DNA of 64,000 nucleotides from an uncultured bacterium (GTDB lineage Bacteria; Bacteroidota; Bacteroidia; Sphingobacteriales; Sphingobacteriaceae): NCBI GenBank assembly GCA_903828245.1, contig CAIKLP010000018.1:1-64000 (forward strand), given 5' to 3'. Under the pieces are notes generated by a model, which searched no databases, was not told the DNA's origin, and saw only the letters and a list, made by a program, of their open reading frames with translations. A program made the translations under genes and the position numbers. Below, one piece after another: positions 53,463 to 64,000 of this stretch (positions are counted from its first letter, which is position 1; the number at the start of each line of letters is the position of its first letter).

Positions 53463-53549
53463 TGTTGCTATCTTATTTCTAAAAGGCTTATTAAATAGGT
53501 ATTGTAGCCTAATTTCTCCTAATTTTTTTTTATATTTATTTTGAAAAAA

Positions 53550-54293
53550 ATGGGAAATCCGAAAAACATACTCCTCGAAATTTGTGCTGCAAATTTTGCT
53601 TCTGTGCAAGCGGCTAGTTTAGCAGGTGCGGATAGAATAGAACTATGTTCGGCTTTAGCAGTTGGCGGTTTAACGCCTTCGCATGCTTTGCTCGAAGCGG
53701 TGCAGCATTCGTTTGCAATTCCGGTGCATGTATTGGTTCGTCCAAGAGAAGGTGATTTTTTGTATACTGATGCGGAGTTTCAAATCATGCAAGAAGAAAT
53801 TTTAAAAATCAAACAAATGGGTTTTGCCGGAGTGGTGTTTGGTATATTAAATTCCGATGCTACCATAGATGAAAAAAGATGCGCAACATTAGTCGCAATG
53901 GCAAAACCGATGCAACTTACTTTTCATCGTGCTTTCGACTTTGTAGCCCAAGCCAATGTAGCGCTAGAAAAACTAATCGAATTAGGCTTTGATTATGTTT
54001 TAAGCTCTGGCTTGAAAACTACGGCTGTGTTGGGTTTAACACAATTAACCGACTTAGTAGCCCAAGCAAATAATCGAATTCAAATCATACCCGCAGCGGG
54101 TATCAACGAAAGCAATGTTGCATCAATTATTCAAACAACAAAAGCCAATATTATTCATTGTTCATTAAGCGAGGAAGTACCAAGTAAGATGCAAGTTGAT
54201 AATGGGTCTAATTTAATATTTGTCAACGCGGAGTCGAGCGAAAAAAAGATACGTGCAGTTAAAAAAATAATAACAACCATAAGCCATGCGTAA
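53550..54293 (+). CDS. cutC: CutC family protein
   Basis: The 247-residue protein is a TIM-barrel CutC. It has ILLEICAANFASVQAASLAG, GADRIELCSALAVGGLTPSH, the VLVRPREGDFLYTDAE strand, GVVFGILNSD, LTFHRAFDFV and IIPAAGINESN. The family was first linked with copper handling in E. coli, but its enzymatic activity is not firmly established. The ATG at 53550 is preferred to the TTG at 53541. The stop overlaps the start of the GH2 gene by 8 bases, so it is the first gene of the glycan-degradation operon, which suggests a job outside copper handling. Confidence 0.92.
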   Translation: MGNPKNILLEICAANFASVQAASLAGADRIELCSALAVGGLTPSHALLEAVQHSFAIPVHVLVRPREGDFLYTDAEFQIMQEEILKIKQMGFAGVVFGILNSDATIDEKRCATLVAMAKPMQLTFHRAFDFVAQANVALEKLIELGFDYVLSSGLKTTAVLGLTQLTDLVAQANNRIQIIPAAGINESNVASIIQTTKANIIHCSLSEEVPSKMQVDNGSNLIFVNAESSEKKIRAVKKIITTISHA

Positions 54294-56832
54294 ATTCGGC
54301 TCGATGTTATTTTTATTGATGGCAATTTGCGTACTAGCAAATAATCAAGCACAAGCCCAATCAATAATAGATTTAACAAATGCGGCACCTTGGTATTTTA
54401 AAGAATTCAATAATGCCGAGTCGCAATGGCTGCAGGCTAAAGTGCCGGGTACCATTCACCAAGATTTATTAGCTCATCAATTAATTGCAGATCCCTATTT
54501 ATTAAATAAGGAACAGCAGGCACAATGGCCAGCTCAAAAGGAATGGCTTTACCAAACCACCATTTTATTGACACCGGCTTCGGCGGCTTATCAACAAATG
54601 GAATTAGTTTTCGAGGGATTAGATACTGATGCAGAAATTTTGATCAATGGAAAAGTAATCGCAAGCGTTAATAATATGTTTCGCATTTGGAAGTTCAATG
54701 TTCGTCCATTGCTAAAAATTGGTAACAACGATTTGCAAATAAAATTTTTATCAAGCGAAAATTTGGCGGCTTTGGCTTACCATAAATTGCAACCCAAAAT
54801 TCCATTAGATGAAAGAATCATGGTCCGCAAAGCAGCCTATCAATTTGGTTGGGATTGGGGTCCTCGTTTGGTTACAGCGGGGATTTATAAAAAAGTGTAT
54901 TTACATTGCTGGGATCAATTAAAAATCGAACACATTCAATATCAGCAGTTGCAAATAGATACTGCAATGGCTCGCTTAAATGCAAAAGTCGGAATCAATA
55001 GTCTTGTTGAACAAGAAATTAGCTATCAAATTATCGATAGTACCACCAAGCAAATATATGCAAGTAGTAAATTAAAAGTAGTGAAGGGGCAGCAATTTTT
55101 TTCAATTCCATTTACCATCAATAAGCCCAAGTTGTGGTGGTGCAATGGTTTGGGAGCACCCAATTTATTAAATTTAACATTCATACTACTTAGCAAGAAT
55201 ATAAAAATAGCAGAAAACACCCGCATAGGCTTAAGAAAAATTGAACTCGTTCAACAAGCTGATCAAAAAGGAAAATCTTTTTATTTCAAATTAAATGGAC
55301 TGCCTGTTTTTATGAAAGGGGCCAATTATATTCCGCAAGATAATTTTATACCTCGGGTAAGTATTGCGCAAACAAAAAGTTTAATTCAACAAGCAAAAGC
55401 GGCAAACTTTAATATGTTAAGGGTTTGGGGCGGTGGCATCTACGAGAGCGATGCGTTTTATAACGCGTGTGACGAATCTGGCATTTTAGTTTGGCAAGAT
55501 TTTATGTTTGCTTGCGGCTTAGTGCCAAGTGGCGCGGCATTTGCCAATAATGTTAAACAAGAAATTGCCGATCAACTCATTCGATTAAGAAACCATCCAT
55601 GTATTGCATTGTGGTGTGGTAATAACGAAGTAGCAGAGGGCTGGTCTAATTGGGGCTGGCAAAAACAATTTAATCTGAGCGCTGCAGATTCTATTCGAAT
55701 TTGGGCAGATTATCAAAAAATATTTCATCAAATCATTCCATCGGTCATCGATAGCTTGAGCGATGGCATTGCTTATTGGCCATCATCTCCTCAATTTGGT
55801 TGGGGTAGAAAAGAAAGTTTACTATTTGGAGACATCCATTATTGGGGAGTTTGGTGGGGCGAAGAACCTTTCGAAAAATACCAACAAAAAGTAGGTCGAT
55901 TTGTATCCGAGTATGGCTTTCAATCTTTTCCAAGTAAAAGTACCCTCGAAAAATTTACGAACCTAAACGATCGAAAACTAAATTCGAACACGATGCAAGC
56001 GCATCAAAAACATCCCAAAGGTTTTCAAATCATAGACCAACAAATGGGCTTGTACTATCAAAAACCATCCGACTTCGACACATATGCCTATACAAGCCAA
56101 GTTTTGCAAGCAGAGGGCCTAAAAATAGCCATAGAGGCCCATCGTATGGCAATGCCATATTGTATGGGGACATTATATTGGCAGTTCAACGATTGTTGGC
56201 CGGTGGTGTCTTGGTCGAGCAGCGATTATTACCAAGAAAAAAAAGCGGCCTATTATTTTGTTAAAAAAAGTTTTGCCACCAATATGTTGGCATTCCAAAA
56301 ACAAAATGATAGTTTACAATTGTATGTTGTCAGCGATTCGCTTCAAGCCATGCAAGTAAAATTAAATTTTGTAGTGATGACCCATACTGGAAAAATTGTT
56401 TTCCAATCAAAAAATCAATATAATCTTAGGCCACAATCTGCAACAAAATTAACTCAATTTAGTATGGCCAGTTTAACTAAAGGCTATGATCCAACACGTT
56501 TAGTTGGCGTCGCAACCATCGAAAAACAAGATGGAAGTACGATAACAAACTATTATTATTTTGATGTGATAAAAAATTTAGACTTAGTGGCCGATCGCAT
56601 CAGTGTTAATCAATCTGCAGGCAATGGCCAAATTGCTATTCGCATTTCTTCCCCAACTTGGAAAAAAAATATCCAGCTCAGTACCAGTGTTGCAGGCGAA
56701 TTTTCTGATAATTATTTTGATCTTATGCCCAATCAAACACAAGTTATTTATTTCAAACCTACGCATACACTTTCATTGGAAAATATTCCTTTGACTACCA
56801 AATTTATTTATAATAAAGAATCGAAAAAATAA
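54286..56832 (+). CDS. GH2 beta-mannosidase, exported
   Basis: The 848-residue enzyme removes terminal beta-linked mannose, such as the core mannose of N-glycans after alpha-mannose removal. A signal peptide (MRKFGSMLFLLMAICVLANN) precedes the jelly-roll domain (VPGTIHQDLLAHQLIADPYL, EWLYQTTI). The barrel carries the acid/base Glu in WCGNNEVAEGWSNWGW near residue 446 and the nucleophile Glu in GRFVSEYGFQSFPSKST near residue 541. The QFGWDWGPRL segment is typical of MANBA-like GH2 enzymes. Sequence and length match family beta-mannosidases. It overlaps cutC and precedes GH92 by 6 bases. Confidence 0.93.
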   Translation: MRKFGSMLFLLMAICVLANNQAQAQSIIDLTNAAPWYFKEFNNAESQWLQAKVPGTIHQDLLAHQLIADPYLLNKEQQAQWPAQKEWLYQTTILLTPASAAYQQMELVFEGLDTDAEILINGKVIASVNNMFRIWKFNVRPLLKIGNNDLQIKFLSSENLAALAYHKLQPKIPLDERIMVRKAAYQFGWDWGPRLVTAGIYKKVYLHCWDQLKIEHIQYQQLQIDTAMARLNAKVGINSLVEQEISYQIIDSTTKQIYASSKLKVVKGQQFFSIPFTINKPKLWWCNGLGAPNLLNLTFILLSKNIKIAENTRIGLRKIELVQQADQKGKSFYFKLNGLPVFMKGANYIPQDNFIPRVSIAQTKSLIQQAKAANFNMLRVWGGGIYESDAFYNACDESGILVWQDFMFACGLVPSGAAFANNVKQEIADQLIRLRNHPCIALWCGNNEVAEGWSNWGWQKQFNLSAADSIRIWADYQKIFHQIIPSVIDSLSDGIAYWPSSPQFGWGRKESLLFGDIHYWGVWWGEEPFEKYQQKVGRFVSEYGFQSFPSKSTLEKFTNLNDRKLNSNTMQAHQKHPKGFQIIDQQMGLYYQKPSDFDTYAYTSQVLQAEGLKIAIEAHRMAMPYCMGTLYWQFNDCWPVVSWSSSDYYQEKKAAYYFVKKSFATNMLAFQKQNDSLQLYVVSDSLQAMQVKLNFVVMTHTGKIVFQSKNQYNLRPQSATKLTQFSMASLTKGYDPTRLVGVATIEKQDGSTITNYYYFDVIKNLDLVADRISVNQSAGNGQIAIRISSPTWKKNIQLSTSVAGEFSDNYFDLMPNQTQVIYFKPTHTLSLENIPLTTKFIYNKESKK

Positions 56833-56838
56833 ACACCT

Positions 56839-59760
56839 ATGAAAAAAATCATTCTGTACTTTTTTTGTTTCCCCATTTTGTTGGCTTCGGCACAAAAACA
56901 AAAAACAAATTTAGCAAAAATGGTAAATCCATTTATCGGCACAGGAGGCCACGGGCATACCTTTCCAGGCGCTTCAAGTCCATTCGGTATGGTGCAATTG
57001 AGCCCAGATACTCGACTAGATGGATGGGATGGTTGCGGTGGTTACCATTACGATGATAGTATTATTTATGGTTTTTCTCATACGCATTTAAGCGGCACAG
57101 GTGTTTCTGATTACGGAGATATTTTACTCATGCCCAGTACCAATGCGGCGGTTGATTTATCAAATTATGCTTATGCACAAAAGTTTAGTCATCAAGCAGA
57201 GTCGGCACATGCTGGATTTTATGAAGTACAATTAGCTAATCAGGTTAAGGTATCACTTACAGCAACTAGTAGAGCAGGTTACCATCGTTACCAATTTCCA
57301 AATCAATCAAATGTCAATTTGGTGCTCAATTTAAAACACCGCGACCAAGTGATTGCTTCTAGTTTAAAACAAATCAATGCTTATGAAATAGAAGGGATGC
57401 GCCGTTCCAAAGCTTGGGCGAACGATCAACATGTTTATTTTGTGATGCGTTTTTCCAAGCCTATTCAAAGTATCCAATTAGCGAATCAACAAATACTAAA
57501 AATTGGAGAAACTATTCAAAGTAAAGATATCATATCGCTTATTCATTTTCAGCAAGATCAAAATTCAACGCTAGAGGTTAAAGTTGGCATTTCGGCAGTG
57601 AGCGAAGCAGGCGCTAGGCTCAATTTGGAAAAAGAAATGGCAAACCTATCTTTTGAAAAAGTACTTGCCAATGTTAACGTAAATTGGAACCTAGAATTAG
57701 GTAAAATTACCATCAAAGATCCTCGTGTAAAATTAAAAAATATTTTTTATACGACACTGTACCATGCCATGCTCAGTCCTAATGTTTACAATGATGTAGA
57801 CGGTCATTACAGGGGAAGAGATTTACAAATACATCAATCCAAAGAATTCAATAATTATTCTGTTTTTTCGTTATGGGATACCTATCGTGCCGAGCATCCT
57901 TTGTTAACGGTGATAGATCAGAAAAGAAGCAACGATTTTATTCAAACTTTTATTCATCAAGCGGAACAAGGCGGATTACTTCCAGTCTGGGAGTTATCGG
58001 GTAACGAAACCAATTGTATGATTGGTTATCATTCCGTTTCGGTTATTGCCGATGCCTTTCTCAAAGGAATTCGTCAATATGATGTAGAGAAAGCATTTGA
58101 AGCGATGAAAAAATCGGCGAATCAAAATGAACTTTCTTTAAATGCTTATCGACTATTTGGATTTGTACCTGCCGATATAGCTTCAGAGTCTGTTTCTAAA
58201 ACTTTAGAATACGCATATGACGATTGGTGTATTGCCCAAATGGCAAAGGCCTTAGGGCATCAAGCAGATTACGAAATTTTTATTCAGCGTGCACAATATT
58301 ATAAAAATGTATTTGATCAATCGAGTGGTTTCATGCGAGCAAGAATTAACAATACTTGGATTAGTCCATTTAATCCTTACGAAGTTAATTTTAATTATAC
58401 CGAAGCCAATGCTTGGCAATATGCATTTATGGTTCCTCAAGATATCAATGGATTAATGGATTTGATGGGAGGGAAGAAACAATTTGCCGCAAAATTAATG
58501 CAACTTTTTATGGCAGATACAGCCACAACCGGAAGGGTGCAAGCCGACATCAGTGGTTTAATTGGTCAATACGCTCATGGCAACGAGCCCAGTCATCATA
58601 TGGCTTATCTGTTTAATGCTGCGGGGCAACCTTGGAAAACACAAAGTTTAGTGAGTAACATTTCCGAAGTAATGTATCGTTATCATCCTAACGGTTTAAT
58701 CGGTAACGAAGATTGCGGGCAAATGTCTGCATGGTATGTATGGTCTGCTATGGGCTTGTATCCGGTAACTCCGGGTGCAGCTAATTATGCCATCGGTTCA
58801 CCTATGTTCGAAGAAGTAACAATTCATTTAGAAAATGGTAAGCAGTTTATTATTAAAGTGAAAAAGAATGGAGATGATGCGCATTACATTCAGACTGCAA
58901 AACTAAATCAGCAGCCATACAATCAAAGTGATATTGCTCATCAAACCATAATGAATGGGGCTACGCTTGTATTTCAAATGGCTGATACCGCCAATAAAAA
59001 TTGGGCTACAGATAATTATACCGCTACAACCATTCAAGATCAATTGATTACCGCTACACCCTTTGTAGCACAAGCCACTCGAACTTTTTACGATTCTACT
59101 TTAGTGGCTATGCAAAGTGTGATTTCGAATGCTCGCATTTACTTTACGCTCAATGGAGATGAGCCAAGTGCAAAATCAAATTTATATAGTAAACCGTTTT
59201 ATATTCATCAAACAACATCTATTAAAATGTTGGCCATTGCGCCAAATTCTTTGCCTTCTAAAACGGTGGAGTCGCTACATACTAAAATGATAGATCATCG
59301 TAAGGTGCAAATAAAATATCCTTATGCGCCACAATATGCCGCATCGGGTCCACAAACTTTGGTCGATTTTATCAAAGGCACCACCAGCTTTCAAACAGGC
59401 GCATGGCAAGGATTTGAAGGCGTTGATTTAATAGCAACAGTTGATTTAGGAGAAATAAAAAACATTCAACAAATAGCGACTACATTTCTACAAGACCAAG
59501 GTTCTTGGATTTTCTTACCCAAAGAAGTAAGCTATGCTATTTCAACAGATGGATTGAATTTTAAAGAATTGGATAAATTAAATTATGCTGCAGAGCAAGA
59601 TAATGCAAATAAATTAATACATGCTTTTGTGAAAAGTTTTAATGCAACAAAAGTGAGATATGTAAAAATTAACGCAAAAAATATTGGAAATTGCCCAAGC
59701 TGGCACTTAGGAGCAGGTGGTACTTCATGGATTTTTGCAGACGAAATAGCGATAGAATAA
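56839..59760 (+). CDS. GH92 exo-alpha-mannosidase with C-terminal CHB_HEX-like and discoidin-like domains
   Basis: GH92 enzymes are calcium-dependent exo-alpha-mannosidases that trim high-mannose N-glycans. The 973-residue protein has a signal peptide (MKKIILYFFCFPILLASAQ) and the family opening MVNPFIGTGGHGHTFPGASS. GFSHTHLSGTGVSDYGDILL, LWDTYRAEHPLLT and the catalytic-Glu segment GNEDCGQMSAWYVWSAMG follow. After about residue 735 come two extra domains: a chitobiase/hexosaminidase C-terminal-like domain (ARIYFTLNGDEPS) and a discoidin-like domain (ending NCPSWHLGAGGTSWIFADEI). The latter closely resembles the end of the GH20 next door. The linkage specificity cannot be read from sequence. 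Confidence 0.94.
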   Translation: MKKIILYFFCFPILLASAQKQKTNLAKMVNPFIGTGGHGHTFPGASSPFGMVQLSPDTRLDGWDGCGGYHYDDSIIYGFSHTHLSGTGVSDYGDILLMPSTNAAVDLSNYAYAQKFSHQAESAHAGFYEVQLANQVKVSLTATSRAGYHRYQFPNQSNVNLVLNLKHRDQVIASSLKQINAYEIEGMRRSKAWANDQHVYFVMRFSKPIQSIQLANQQILKIGETIQSKDIISLIHFQQDQNSTLEVKVGISAVSEAGARLNLEKEMANLSFEKVLANVNVNWNLELGKITIKDPRVKLKNIFYTTLYHAMLSPNVYNDVDGHYRGRDLQIHQSKEFNNYSVFSLWDTYRAEHPLLTVIDQKRSNDFIQTFIHQAEQGGLLPVWELSGNETNCMIGYHSVSVIADAFLKGIRQYDVEKAFEAMKKSANQNELSLNAYRLFGFVPADIASESVSKTLEYAYDDWCIAQMAKALGHQADYEIFIQRAQYYKNVFDQSSGFMRARINNTWISPFNPYEVNFNYTEANAWQYAFMVPQDINGLMDLMGGKKQFAAKLMQLFMADTATTGRVQADISGLIGQYAHGNEPSHHMAYLFNAAGQPWKTQSLVSNISEVMYRYHPNGLIGNEDCGQMSAWYVWSAMGLYPVTPGAANYAIGSPMFEEVTIHLENGKQFIIKVKKNGDDAHYIQTAKLNQQPYNQSDIAHQTIMNGATLVFQMADTANKNWATDNYTATTIQDQLITATPFVAQATRTFYDSTLVAMQSVISNARIYFTLNGDEPSAKSNLYSKPFYIHQTTSIKMLAIAPNSLPSKTVESLHTKMIDHRKVQIKYPYAPQYAASGPQTLVDFIKGTTSFQTGAWQGFEGVDLIATVDLGEIKNIQQIATTFLQDQGSWIFLPKEVSYAISTDGLNFKELDKLNYAAEQDNANKLIHAFVKSFNATKVRYVKINAKNIGNCPSWHLGAGGTSWIFADEIAIE

Positions 59761-59761
59761 G

Positions 59762-62047
59762 ATGAAAAAAAGTATAAGGATTATTTTTATTTTGGTAATT
59801 GGCATTTTGCCAATGAGGCTTCTTTCACAAGCCATAGCAACACCCATTCAAATTATTCCGGCTCCACAAAAAATAACACACAGCGAAGGGCAATTTGTTT
59901 TTAATGAAAACACGCAGCTTGTTTTTGATAATAAAAATTCGGAATTAAAAAATACCGCTATTTATTTACAATCATTTTTGGCAAAGGCAACAAATTTGTC
60001 GTTTAAAGTAAGCACCAAAAATGCACCCGATAATAATGTTATATATATTGGCATTGCTACTAATTTGGCGCTTCCTAGCCCAGAAGGCTATCAATTAATT
60101 ATCACAAAAAACAAGGTAAGTATTATTGGAAATAGTTTGGCTGGCGTATTTTACGGTATACAAAGTATGAGACAATTGTTACCAGCAGCAATAGAAAATA
60201 ATGGCAATCTAAAAAGCCTGCTGCAGTTTCAATTACCTTGTCTACAAATTACCGACTATCCAAAATTTGCTTGGCGTGGACTCAATTTAGATTGTTGTAG
60301 ACATTTCATGGATAAAGCATTTATTCTACATTATTTAGATGTGCTTGCTTATTATAAAATGAATAAATTTCATTGGCATTTAACAGAAGATCAAGCTTGG
60401 CGAATAGAGATAAAAAAATATCCAAAACTCACCTCGGTTGGTGCTTTCAGAAAAGAAAAAGAAGGCAATATTTATGGTGGATTTTATACGCAAGAAGATA
60501 TCAAAGAAGTGGTGGCTTATGCTGCTAAATTAAATATCGAAGTAATTCCAGAAATAGAAATGCCAGGACATTCCTTGGCTGCCATTGCCGCATATCCTGC
60601 GCTTTCTTGCAACAAAGCACCGCTTGCGGTTGCAAATACCTGGGGCGTTTTTAAAGACATCTATTGTGCAGGTAACGATAGTACATTTGTTTTTTTAGAA
60701 AATGTATTAACAGAAGTGTTTGCTTTATTTCCTTCTAAATATATTCATATAGGAGGCGATGAAGCACCTAAATATCGTTGGGAAAATTGCGCTGCTTGTC
60801 GGCTAAGAATGCAAAACGAAAAACTCAAAGATGCACACGAATTACAAAGTTATTTTATCAAACGAATGGAAAAATTTGCCAATTTAAATGGTAAAAAAAT
60901 AATTGGTTGGGATGAAATTTTAGAAGGTGGATTAGCCCCCAACGCAACGGTTCAATCGTGGAGAGGAGTAGAAGGTGCAATAGCTGCTGTTAATTCGCAA
61001 CACGATGCCATTGTATCGCCCACCAGTCATTGCTATTTTGATTATTCTTTAAAGTCGATTGATTTAGCAAAAGTGTATAGTTTTAATCCAATACCTGCAG
61101 GCATTTTGGCCGAAAACGAAAAGTACATTTTAGGTGGAGAATGCAATATGTGGACCGAAAAAGCACCTCAAAACCTAGTCGATTCAAAAGTATTTCCACG
61201 CTTATTAGCATTAGCCGAAGTTTTGTGGACCAATCCAATGCCTCGCAATTTCGAAGCATTCAACCAAAGAGTAGTATCGCATTATCCTCGCTTAACGGCA
61301 TTGGGTATTCATTATGGTTTTGATAAACAAGGGATCACTTTTTCGATTCAAGCAAATCCACTAGCTAAAGCCTTTCAAGTGGAATTAATTCCTGCCCAAG
61401 CCGATTTAAAAATAGTATATACTTTAGATCAATCACTACCCCAAATTGGAAATCCAAAAGCAATAGTTTATGATAAAGCCATTCAATTACAAGAGTCTGG
61501 TATTTTAAAAGCCGCAATACAACAAGTCGACACCAATCAATTAGAAGTCTTCAGTCGTCAATTTGATATTCACCAAGCCATTGCCAAGCCTTGCACAATC
61601 AATGCTAAGCCCAGCGATAGTTATGCAGCCAATGGGGCTAATTCATTAGTCGACGGGCTCATTGGTTCGATTGATTTTCATGATGGACTTTGGTTAGGGT
61701 TCCAGCAAAATCATTTAGAAGCCATTATAGACTTGGGGGAAAATAAAAAAATCAACAGCATACAAGCTCATTTTCTACAGAGTATGCCTTCTTGGATTTT
61801 ATTTCCCGAAAGTGTTTCCTTATATACTTCGAGTGATGGCATTCAATTTAAATTATTCAAAGTGCTTGAAAATAAATTTCCTCAAAATGTGAGCGAAACA
61901 AGTATGCAATACTTTAGCTTTGAATTGCCAAATACAAGCACACGTTATATTAAATTGATTGCTAAAAAAGTGGATAAATGTCCCGAATGGCACGAAGCGG
62001 CTGGAAGTGAGGCTTGGTTATTTGTAGATGAAATTAGTATATATTAA
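59762..62047 (+). CDS. GH20 beta-N-acetylhexosaminidase with C-terminal discoidin-like domain
   Basis: The 761-residue enzyme removes terminal beta-linked GlcNAc or GalNAc. Signal peptide (MKKSIRIIFILVIGILPMRL), an N-terminal GH20b domain (IIPAPQKITHSEGQFVFNEN) and the catalytic barrel. The barrel has NKFHWHLTEDQAWRIEIKKY near residue 201 and the catalytic Asp-Glu pair in YIHIGGDEAPKYRW near residue 332. The C-terminal discoidin-like domain ends NKVDKCPEWHEAAGSEAW-like and matches that of the GH92 protein. It starts one base after the GH92 stop. It would clear antennal or core GlcNAc left by the other enzymes. Confidence 0.94.
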   Translation: MKKSIRIIFILVIGILPMRLLSQAIATPIQIIPAPQKITHSEGQFVFNENTQLVFDNKNSELKNTAIYLQSFLAKATNLSFKVSTKNAPDNNVIYIGIATNLALPSPEGYQLIITKNKVSIIGNSLAGVFYGIQSMRQLLPAAIENNGNLKSLLQFQLPCLQITDYPKFAWRGLNLDCCRHFMDKAFILHYLDVLAYYKMNKFHWHLTEDQAWRIEIKKYPKLTSVGAFRKEKEGNIYGGFYTQEDIKEVVAYAAKLNIEVIPEIEMPGHSLAAIAAYPALSCNKAPLAVANTWGVFKDIYCAGNDSTFVFLENVLTEVFALFPSKYIHIGGDEAPKYRWENCAACRLRMQNEKLKDAHELQSYFIKRMEKFANLNGKKIIGWDEILEGGLAPNATVQSWRGVEGAIAAVNSQHDAIVSPTSHCYFDYSLKSIDLAKVYSFNPIPAGILAENEKYILGGECNMWTEKAPQNLVDSKVFPRLLALAEVLWTNPMPRNFEAFNQRVVSHYPRLTALGIHYGFDKQGITFSIQANPLAKAFQVELIPAQADLKIVYTLDQSLPQIGNPKAIVYDKAIQLQESGILKAAIQQVDTNQLEVFSRQFDIHQAIAKPCTINAKPSDSYAANGANSLVDGLIGSIDFHDGLWLGFQQNHLEAIIDLGENKKINSIQAHFLQSMPSWILFPESVSLYTSSDGIQFKLFKVLENKFPQNVSETSMQYFSFELPNTSTRYIKLIAKKVDKCPEWHEAAGSEAWLFVDEISIY

Positions 62048-62057
62048 ATATTTTCAT

Positions 62058-64000
62058 ATGAGAATTAGGAACTTAATCTTTTCGATTATTTGCATGTTTG
62101 CAGCTTCGGCTTGCCAAAAAGAAATGCATTTAATTACCGACACTAATTATTTAGCAAAAGTAGATAGTCAGTTTCAAAGACAAAAAATGCTAGCTGTAAA
62201 TAGAGATTCCGCGCTTTTCAATGTGTTTAAGCAATCCTTGAGTCCATTTGAAACCGAAGCTTTGAAGTTTTTATTTGCTTATATGCCTTTGTCAGATTTA
62301 GCAGATTACGATGGTGCATTTTATTTGAAAAATATTAAATCGTCTGCGCAGGCAAAACTAACCATGCCTTGGGCCGATAAAATACCAGAAAATATTTATC
62401 GACATTTTGTATTACCCATTAGAGTGAATACCGAAACGCTAGATACGGCTCGTTTGGTTTTTTATCAAGCGCTCAAAGATAGGGTAGCCGGCTTATCCAT
62501 GGAAGCAGCCGTTTTGGAGGTGAACCACTGGTGCCACGAAAAAGTAATTTACCGATCTACAGACGATCGTACTTCCTCTCCTTTAAATTGTGTAAAATCT
62601 ACTTTTGGTAGGTGCGGCGAAGAATCAACTTTATTGGTCACTGCATTGCGTTCGGTTGGTATTCCAGCTCGTCAATGTTATACGCCCCGATGGGCTCATT
62701 GCGACGACAACCATGCTTGGGTAGAAGCATGGGTCGATGGAGAATGGAAATATTTAGGTGCATGCGAACCCGAAGGGGAATTAAACAAAGGATGGTTTAC
62801 CGGCCCATCTAAAAGGGCTATGTTGGTTAATACTACGGTATTTGGTGATTATCAAGGACCCGAAGCGGTTTTAGAAAAAACACCTTGGTATACCAAAATA
62901 AATGTTTTATCAAATTATACGAAAACAAAAAAAATAGTTGTTCAAGTTATTGATGAACAAAATCAACCAATCGAAAATGCAAATGTTGCTTTTAAATTAT
63001 ATAACTATGCGGAGTTTTATAGTTTAAGTAATCAATTAACCGATAAAAATGGTTTTTGTGATTTTGAAACTGGCTTAGGCGATTTGTTAATTTGGGCAAG
63101 TAAAGGGGAGGCCTATAACTATCAAAAAGTAACAGTTGCCAATACCGACACCTTAGTTTTGTCAATAGCTACTCAACCTGTTTTTATAAGTACTTCTTTT
63201 ACTCCTCCGGCAGATACTTATCAAGAGCCTAAAAATGCTCATCCAAACCAAGCCAAACTAGCGCAAAGAATAAAGCAAGAAGATTCGCTAAGGGCCAATC
63301 AAATAGCTACTTTCCCAGATAGTGCCCAAATAACAAAATGGGCGCTAAATAATAATTTGCCAATCGAACAATGCCTTCAATATATTAATTTATCGGTGGG
63401 CAACTATCAAACTATTCAAGCATTTTTACTGAGCTACAGTAAACACCAAGATTGGAAATTTGACTTATTAAAATTAATTTCTGAAAAAGATTTAAGAGAT
63501 ATTTCTTTAACGACTTTGTTAGATCATTTAAATAATAGCCAATCATTGGCAGTATTAAATCCTCGAATTGGTAATGAAATGTCTTCGGCATATAAATCTT
63601 ATTTTCAAAAACATTTCGATGCGCAATTTCAGCAAAAAGCAAAAGCAGATATTTCTTTTTTAGTGCAATGGTTTCAACAAAATATCCAAATCGAAAAGCA
63701 AGCCAATTATTATCACATACCCATGAGCCCGATTGGAGTTGCGGAGCTTAAACAGGCCGACCTGCCATCAAGAAATATTTTATTTGTAGCCATGTGCAGG
63801 AGCTTTGGTATACCTGCACGTATAGAACCTGAATATGCTCAATTACAAGTAAAATTTAATTCGCAACCTAATTGGCAAACAATTAATTTTGAGCAAACAA
63901 GTAAAGAAATTGCTGCCAATGCCAGACTTAAATTAGTTTATCAAAACCCTTCCGCAATTAAACTACAATACGGATTGAATTTTAGCATTGCAAAAATTGT
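62058..64000 (+). CDS. Transglutaminase/PNGase-fold lipoprotein, C-terminus cut by window end
   Basis: Translation from the ATG at 62058 stays open to the window end (647 codons seen). A lipoprotein signal (MRIRNLIFSIICMFAASAC) has the lipidated Cys at 19. The transglutaminase-like core has GRCGEESTLLVTALRSVGIP (Cys186) and HCDDNHAWVEAWVDGEWKYL (His219). GACEPEGELNKGWF follows. This order resembles eukaryotic peptide:N-glycanase, where W-x-x-x-D-x-C-E carries the third catalytic residue; here that position is Gly234. A beta-sandwich-like region comes next. Near residue 570-590 a second, degenerate copy (LPSRNILFVAMCRSFGIPAR) occurs. It begins 10 bases after the GH20 stop. Confidence 0.82.
   Translation, partial: MRIRNLIFSIICMFAASACQKEMHLITDTNYLAKVDSQFQRQKMLAVNRDSALFNVFKQSLSPFETEALKFLFAYMPLSDLADYDGAFYLKNIKSSAQAKLTMPWADKIPENIYRHFVLPIRVNTETLDTARLVFYQALKDRVAGLSMEAAVLEVNHWCHEKVIYRSTDDRTSSPLNCVKSTFGRCGEESTLLVTALRSVGIPARQCYTPRWAHCDDNHAWVEAWVDGEWKYLGACEPEGELNKGWFTGPSKRAMLVNTTVFGDYQGPEAVLEKTPWYTKINVLSNYTKTKKIVVQVIDEQNQPIENANVAFKLYNYAEFYSLSNQLTDKNGFCDFETGLGDLLIWASKGEAYNYQKVTVANTDTLVLSIATQPVFISTSFTPPADTYQEPKNAHPNQAKLAQRIKQEDSLRANQIATFPDSAQITKWALNNNLPIEQCLQYINLSVGNYQTIQAFLLSYSKHQDWKFDLLKLISEKDLRDISLTTLLDHLNNSQSLAVLNPRIGNEMSSAYKSYFQKHFDAQFQQKAKADISFLVQWFQQNIQIEKQANYYHIPMSPIGVAELKQADLPSRNILFVAMCRSFGIPARIEPEYAQLQVKFNSQPNWQTINFEQTSKEIAANARLKLVYQNPSAIKLQYGLNFSIAKI

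Follow-up and report, generated by a model that had tools for sequence, protein, structure and literature searches.

A transglutaminase-fold lipoprotein encoded next to CutC in Bacteroidota is a candidate replacement for glycosylasparaginase

The window, which is the whole stretch of 64,000 nucleotides that was analysed, ends within an operon on the forward strand with the gene order cutC, GH2, GH92, GH20, TG and DUF3050, where TG designates the transglutaminase-fold exported lipoprotein encoded from position 62058. The first gene, cutC (53541..54293; PF03932, 7.6e-71), was absent from the preliminary description of this DNA and became a key clue. It precedes genes for a GH2 enzyme with mannosidase Ig-type domains, a probable beta-mannosidase (54286..56832; PF22666, PF17786 and PF17753), a GH92 alpha-mannosidase (56839..59760; PF07971, 4.5e-177) and a GH20 beta-hexosaminidase (59762..62047; PF00728, 1.8e-111). 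The Pfam assignments bear out the preliminary statement that the neighbours of TG attack the mannose and GlcNAc of N-glycans. The enzymes of an N-glycan cluster for alpha-mannose, beta-mannose and GlcNAc are present in the operon, and the enzyme for the GlcNAc-Asn linkage is the role proposed here for TG. TG had also been described as closing the operon, which is incorrect, because the DUF3050 gene follows it 1 bp downstream on the same strand; the same arrangement is found in further genomes of the genus. The DUF3050 protein encoded directly after TG on the window contig (L002:3679-4464) weakly matches a haem-oxygenase-like family. In a sister genome the operon order is conserved, with an additional GH29 fucosidase gene between GH92 and GH20 (L010:5946-7682), which is absent from that place in the window genome.

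The TG reading frame begins with an ATG at 62058 and stays open through the end of the window, which therefore covers residues 1-647 of 872 (62058..64000, forward strand). The complete gene, whose retrieval the preliminary description had advised, codes for 872 amino acids to contig position 64673, with the stop codon through 64676; most of the C-terminal beta-rich stretch and a thioredoxin-like domain lie beyond the window. The N-terminus, MRIRNLIFSIICMFAASAC, constitutes a lipoprotein signal, composed of a signal peptide and a lipobox (AASAC) with the lipid-anchor Cys19 (62058..62114). Of 85 family members, 65 contain a lipobox-like motif according to a simple pattern, and most of the others have a signal-peptide-like N-terminus. 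A helical N-terminal part and the catalytic transglutaminase-like domain follow (residues 22-290; 62121..62927), delimited by conservation and by the AlphaFold2 model. The Transglut_core match (PF01841) has an E-value of 5.2e-25 and 88.3 bits against a curated cut-off of 23, and the earlier assignment of a lipoprotein with a transglutaminase core is therefore correct.

Besides Transglut_core, Pfam detects a weak Ig-like domain. In a PDB profile search, whose query was a profile built from 80 TG relatives, this region (62928..63197) matches the family of 3e8v from Bacteroides fragilis (3.7e-31), which is also its best Foldseek match, and the C-terminus of TG is thioredoxin-like (1.3e-4). A second, degenerate transglutaminase-like domain (63636..63845) surfaces when the protein is searched in pieces, with a PF01841 match weaker than the first (1.9e-6) and Ser571 at the nucleophile position, a serine that is found in 84 of 85 aligned members. 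It may be a pseudo-domain for substrate binding.

The residue numbering given previously is correct. Cys186 in GRCGE occupies the nucleophile position (62613..62615), aligned with the Cys of mouse PNGase; His219 in HAWVE occupies the position of the catalytic base (62712..62714); and Gly234 in GACEPE (62757..62759) stands at the position of the triad Asp, with which it is aligned in PNGase. In an alignment of 85 TG proteins, on which all conservation counts rest, each of the three is invariant (85/85), a degree of conservation far beyond chance. The Cys-His-Asp triad of the transglutaminase-like superfamily is thus incomplete in TG, and the Gly at its third position, noted before from a single sequence, is a fixed, family-defining trait. 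A lineage-specific loss of the Asp is ruled out by the same count. Glu237 (62766..62768), which aligns with the Glu in the DACE motif of PNGase and is likewise invariant (85/85), is one candidate for the missing acid; Glu188, Glu189, Glu223, Cys236, Arg211, Trp212, His214, Asp216 and Asn218 are also invariant.

The loss of the Asp in all members, together with a second transglutaminase-like domain that lacks the Cys, might be taken to mean that TG is a catalytically dead lipoprotein that binds glycans or peptides and merely retains the fold, as the second domain appears to do. We consider this very improbable, since the first domain retains Cys186, His219 and some 35 polar or aromatic residues with little or no variation, as is typical of an active enzyme, whereas the degenerate domain has no such conservation. 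Among family members, sequence identity is mostly 55-68% in the catalytic part, versus about 40% over the full length.

The AlphaFold2 models are confident, with a pLDDT of 90.9 for full-length TG and of 91.6 for the catalytic domain. According to DSSP, a helix starts with Cys186 and a strand with His219, and residue 234 comes directly after the next strand. The triad residues of PNGase occupy the same three topological places (PMC3502110), and in the TG model Cys, His and Gly234 are thus positioned where PNGase has its triad. Mutagenesis cited in the same source indicates that the Cys, His and Asp of PNGase are all essential. When TG is aligned to mouse PNGase, GRCGE and HxWxE coincide, as do the Trp ahead of the third position and the ACE behind it, with Gly set against Asp. 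A Foldseek ranking for TG places 3isr first and mouse PNGase (2f4m) second (E=6e-4), followed by transglutaminases.

Both the profile match and the fold identify TG as a member of the transglutaminase-like superfamily. The sequence score against PNGase is not significant (E 0.34-0.44), and direct sequence homology of the two was accordingly dropped. Since TG lacks a defining triad residue and its score is not significant, it is best read as PNGase-like by resemblance of fold and as lying outside the PNGase (Png1/NGLY1) family. The original PNGase-like label stands in so far as it describes the resemblance in GRCGE, HxWxE and xACE; against a family assignment speak the non-significant E-value, the position of PNGase as only the second-best fold match and the absent Asp.

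The first-ranked structure, 3isr, is a putative cysteine protease that is both the closest solved fold and among the few sequence matches, and many bacterial transglutaminase-fold proteins carry a protease annotation. These observations introduce the main rival to a glycoamidase, namely that TG, as a transglutaminase-like cysteine peptidase, cuts back the peptide around the glycosylated Asn or acts on glycopeptides and leaves the GlcNAc-Asn bond untouched. We judge a peptidase role unlikely, as it leaves unexplained both the absence of glycosylasparaginase (AGA) where TG occurs and the position of TG in the place of AGA beside CutC, which are described below.

TG relatives are found in at least 588 species when one genome per species is scanned, and Bacteroidales predominate among the 80 listed, which were taken from the at least 588 confirmed. 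No characterised member of the family was found, the protein has no NCBIfam name, and a literature search restricted to open-licence papers returned no paper on the family and nothing relevant on CutC together with glycosylasparaginase or on N-glycan loci that contain transglutaminases. A shorter paralogous family of about 400 amino acids has its helical N-terminal part and its Cys/His core in common with TG (L009:1432-2634, G626:C1:4060-4815 and G644:C1:149647-150354, with matches also in G584, G647, G659 and G720); the L009 paralogue has TEYYPD at the position of GACEPE in the main family.

An inspection of TG loci in other genomes reveals that CutC immediately adjoins TG in 21 of 80, and in 15 of these it directly precedes TG in the same orientation. 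Six loci, one of which is from the genus of the window genome, have GH92 in the vicinity of TG (10 kb flanks, many of them incomplete), and most loci have no glycosidase in the available flanks. TG is accompanied in L080 by GH38, GH92 and a LacI regulator, and in L020 and L023 by a sugar symporter of the gluP/fucP/NagP group and a ROK sugar kinase. Neighbourhoods with glycosidases, a symporter and a ROK kinase are compatible with the release of sugar and GlcNAc. The association of TG with mannosidases recurs in lineages that are only about 40% identical (L011, L023, L035, L062 and L080). GH31 lies upstream of TG in three loci (L013, L014 and L017), indicating that the glycosidase partner varies by lineage.

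CutC is annotated as a copper protein and is conserved from bacteria to humans. In Bacteroidota loci that have CutC and no TG (1.5 kb flanks; L106-L135), an Asparaginase_2 gene was found in 15 of 29. This gene is of the glycosylasparaginase type and not an isoaspartyl peptidase, its best PDB match being N4-(beta-N-acetylglucosaminyl)-L-asparaginase (1e-129). Among 198 sampled Bacteroidota genomes, 61 have CutC, 98 have AGA and 60 have both; the only one of the 61 without AGA is the window genome, which carries TG and in which, at 99% completeness, no Asparaginase_2 was detected. In Xanthomonas, cutC (XAC3091) is reported to share a genomic region with the nix cluster for N-glycans (PMC6718126), and XAC3092, adjacent by locus number, is an N-glycan-related asparaginase (PMC5700972). 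The counts for Bacteroidota suggest that CutC in this phylum belongs to the breakdown of GlcNAc-Asn or N-glycans rather than to copper metabolism.

The phyletic distributions of TG and AGA are mutually exclusive to a large extent. Within the genus of the window genome AGA is found in none of six genomes, versus 157 of 195 in the rest of the family (157 of 201 family-wide), and full-length TG is confined in that family to this genus, where five of the six genomes carry it. Across 198 genomes of another order, TG was found in 56 and AGA in 16, with none sharing the two (4.5 expected, p=0.0038, kinship ignored), although these numbers are modest because most genomes there have neither. AGA was found in one (G513) of 50 TG genomes from the scan. 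A reading of the Asparaginase_2 matches in TG genomes as AGA was dropped, since comparison with an AGA reference places all but one of them among isoaspartyl peptidases or other non-AGA kinds. The exclusion thus recurs within one family and across dozens of genera of one order, in tests that ignore kinship.

That the counts ignore phylogeny also lends some substance to a second alternative, in which TG is an amidase or transferase with a different substrate, for example peptides of the cell envelope or a metabolite that it shares with CutC, the N-glycan link is confined to a few operons, and the exclusion of AGA reflects lineage history. The unsettled function of CutC and the lack of glycosidases beside TG in most relatives are in keeping with such a substrate. 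Conversely, the recurrence of the mannosidase association in the lineages of about 40% identity, and of the exclusion inside both a family and an order, makes this alternative improbable in our view.

Based on gene order, conservation, the predicted fold and the phyletic exclusion of TG and AGA, we infer a substrate, a cleaved bond and catalytic residues for TG. On balance, TG is probably an amidase of the transglutaminase fold that hydrolyses the bond between GlcNAc and Asn, as a non-orthologous replacement of AGA. This interpretation sustains the earlier suggestion of an amidase that releases glycan from Asn by altered chemistry, to which the position next to CutC and the mutual exclusion with AGA now lend support. 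The exported enzyme would split the beta-N-glycosidic amide that joins the innermost GlcNAc to asparagine in an N-glycan stub or glycopeptide trimmed beforehand by the neighbouring GH92, GH2 and GH20 enzymes, and would fill the place of the unrelated Ntn-hydrolase AGA, which is kept next to CutC in related bacteria. Free GlcNAc-Asn, glycopeptides and glycoproteins are all candidate substrates. Cys186 would attack the asparagine side-chain amide with His219 as the base, and, with Gly234 in place of Asp, His219 may be oriented by another conserved acid, for instance Glu237 or Glu188/189, or by none. A Cys-His enzyme of this fold is chemically capable of the cleavage, since eukaryotic PNGase performs it. 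Against the proposal stand the E-value of 0.34 to PNGase, 3isr as the best fold match, the missing triad Asp, the majority of TG loci without a glycosidase, and the genome G513, in which TG and AGA coexist.

A more far-reaching version, which we regard as possible though rather doubtful, is that TG represents a new glycoamidase class that combines a Cys-His dyad with an invariant Gly for Asp and evolved independently of AGA in Bacteroidales, with CutC as an enzyme or handler of the product, 1-amino-GlcNAc or a derivative. Such a role of CutC would explain its occurrence with either AGA or TG. The enzymes listed in a 2023 review for the release of N-glycans in bacteria are confined to GH18, GH85 and the PNGase family (PMC10154615). 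If the proposed function is correct, TG would represent a new route by which hundreds of Bacteroidales, among them gut species, complete the degradation of N-glycans, and it might find use as a tool in glycobiology. To our knowledge, the present data are the first genome-wide clue linking CutC to GlcNAc-Asn breakdown in Bacteroidota.

A comparison of TG with known systems reveals different kinds of likeness. Eukaryotic cytosolic PNGase (Png1/NGLY1; mouse 2f4m) shares with TG the transglutaminase-like fold, GRCGE, HxWxE, and the W and ACE around the third position, with the Cys at a helix start and the His at a strand start. By contrast, TG has Gly for the triad Asp in all members and is an exported, multidomain lipoprotein with Ig-like, second transglutaminase-like and thioredoxin-like domains; it has no PUB or PAW domain, and the zinc CxxC pairs were not recognised in it. 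The best Foldseek match, 3isr, is a putative transglutaminase-like cysteine protease of Cytophaga hutchinsonii that is about 20% identical to TG over the core, but lacks the GRCGE motif and has a function that is itself putative. The B. fragilis 'possible transglutaminase-family protein' 3e8v is a TG family member and provides the solved Ig-like domain of a homologue, as a fragment of 82 residues that carries no information on the catalytic domain. Enzymes of the bacterial PNGase F family (PF09112/PF09113) resemble TG in being bacterial and exported and in cleaving the bond proposed for TG. PNGase F has an all-beta jelly-roll fold and is not known to use a catalytic Cys; Pfam finds no N-glycanase_N/C domain in TG, and no sequence relation of TG to this family was found. 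A search of the window genome for PNGase F gave no match, and neither did control genomes. Glycosylasparaginase (AGA; 3ljq, 1p4k) is matched by TG in its gene place beside CutC and mannosidase/hexosaminidase genes, in a complementary occurrence and in the predicted bond. Their folds are unrelated, AGA being an Ntn hydrolase with an autoproteolytic Thr and TG a Cys/His protein of the transglutaminase fold with no Pfam match to Asparaginase_2 (PF01112). Judged by gene position and exclusion, TG would accordingly be like glycosylasparaginase in function only, provided that the proposed activity is correct.
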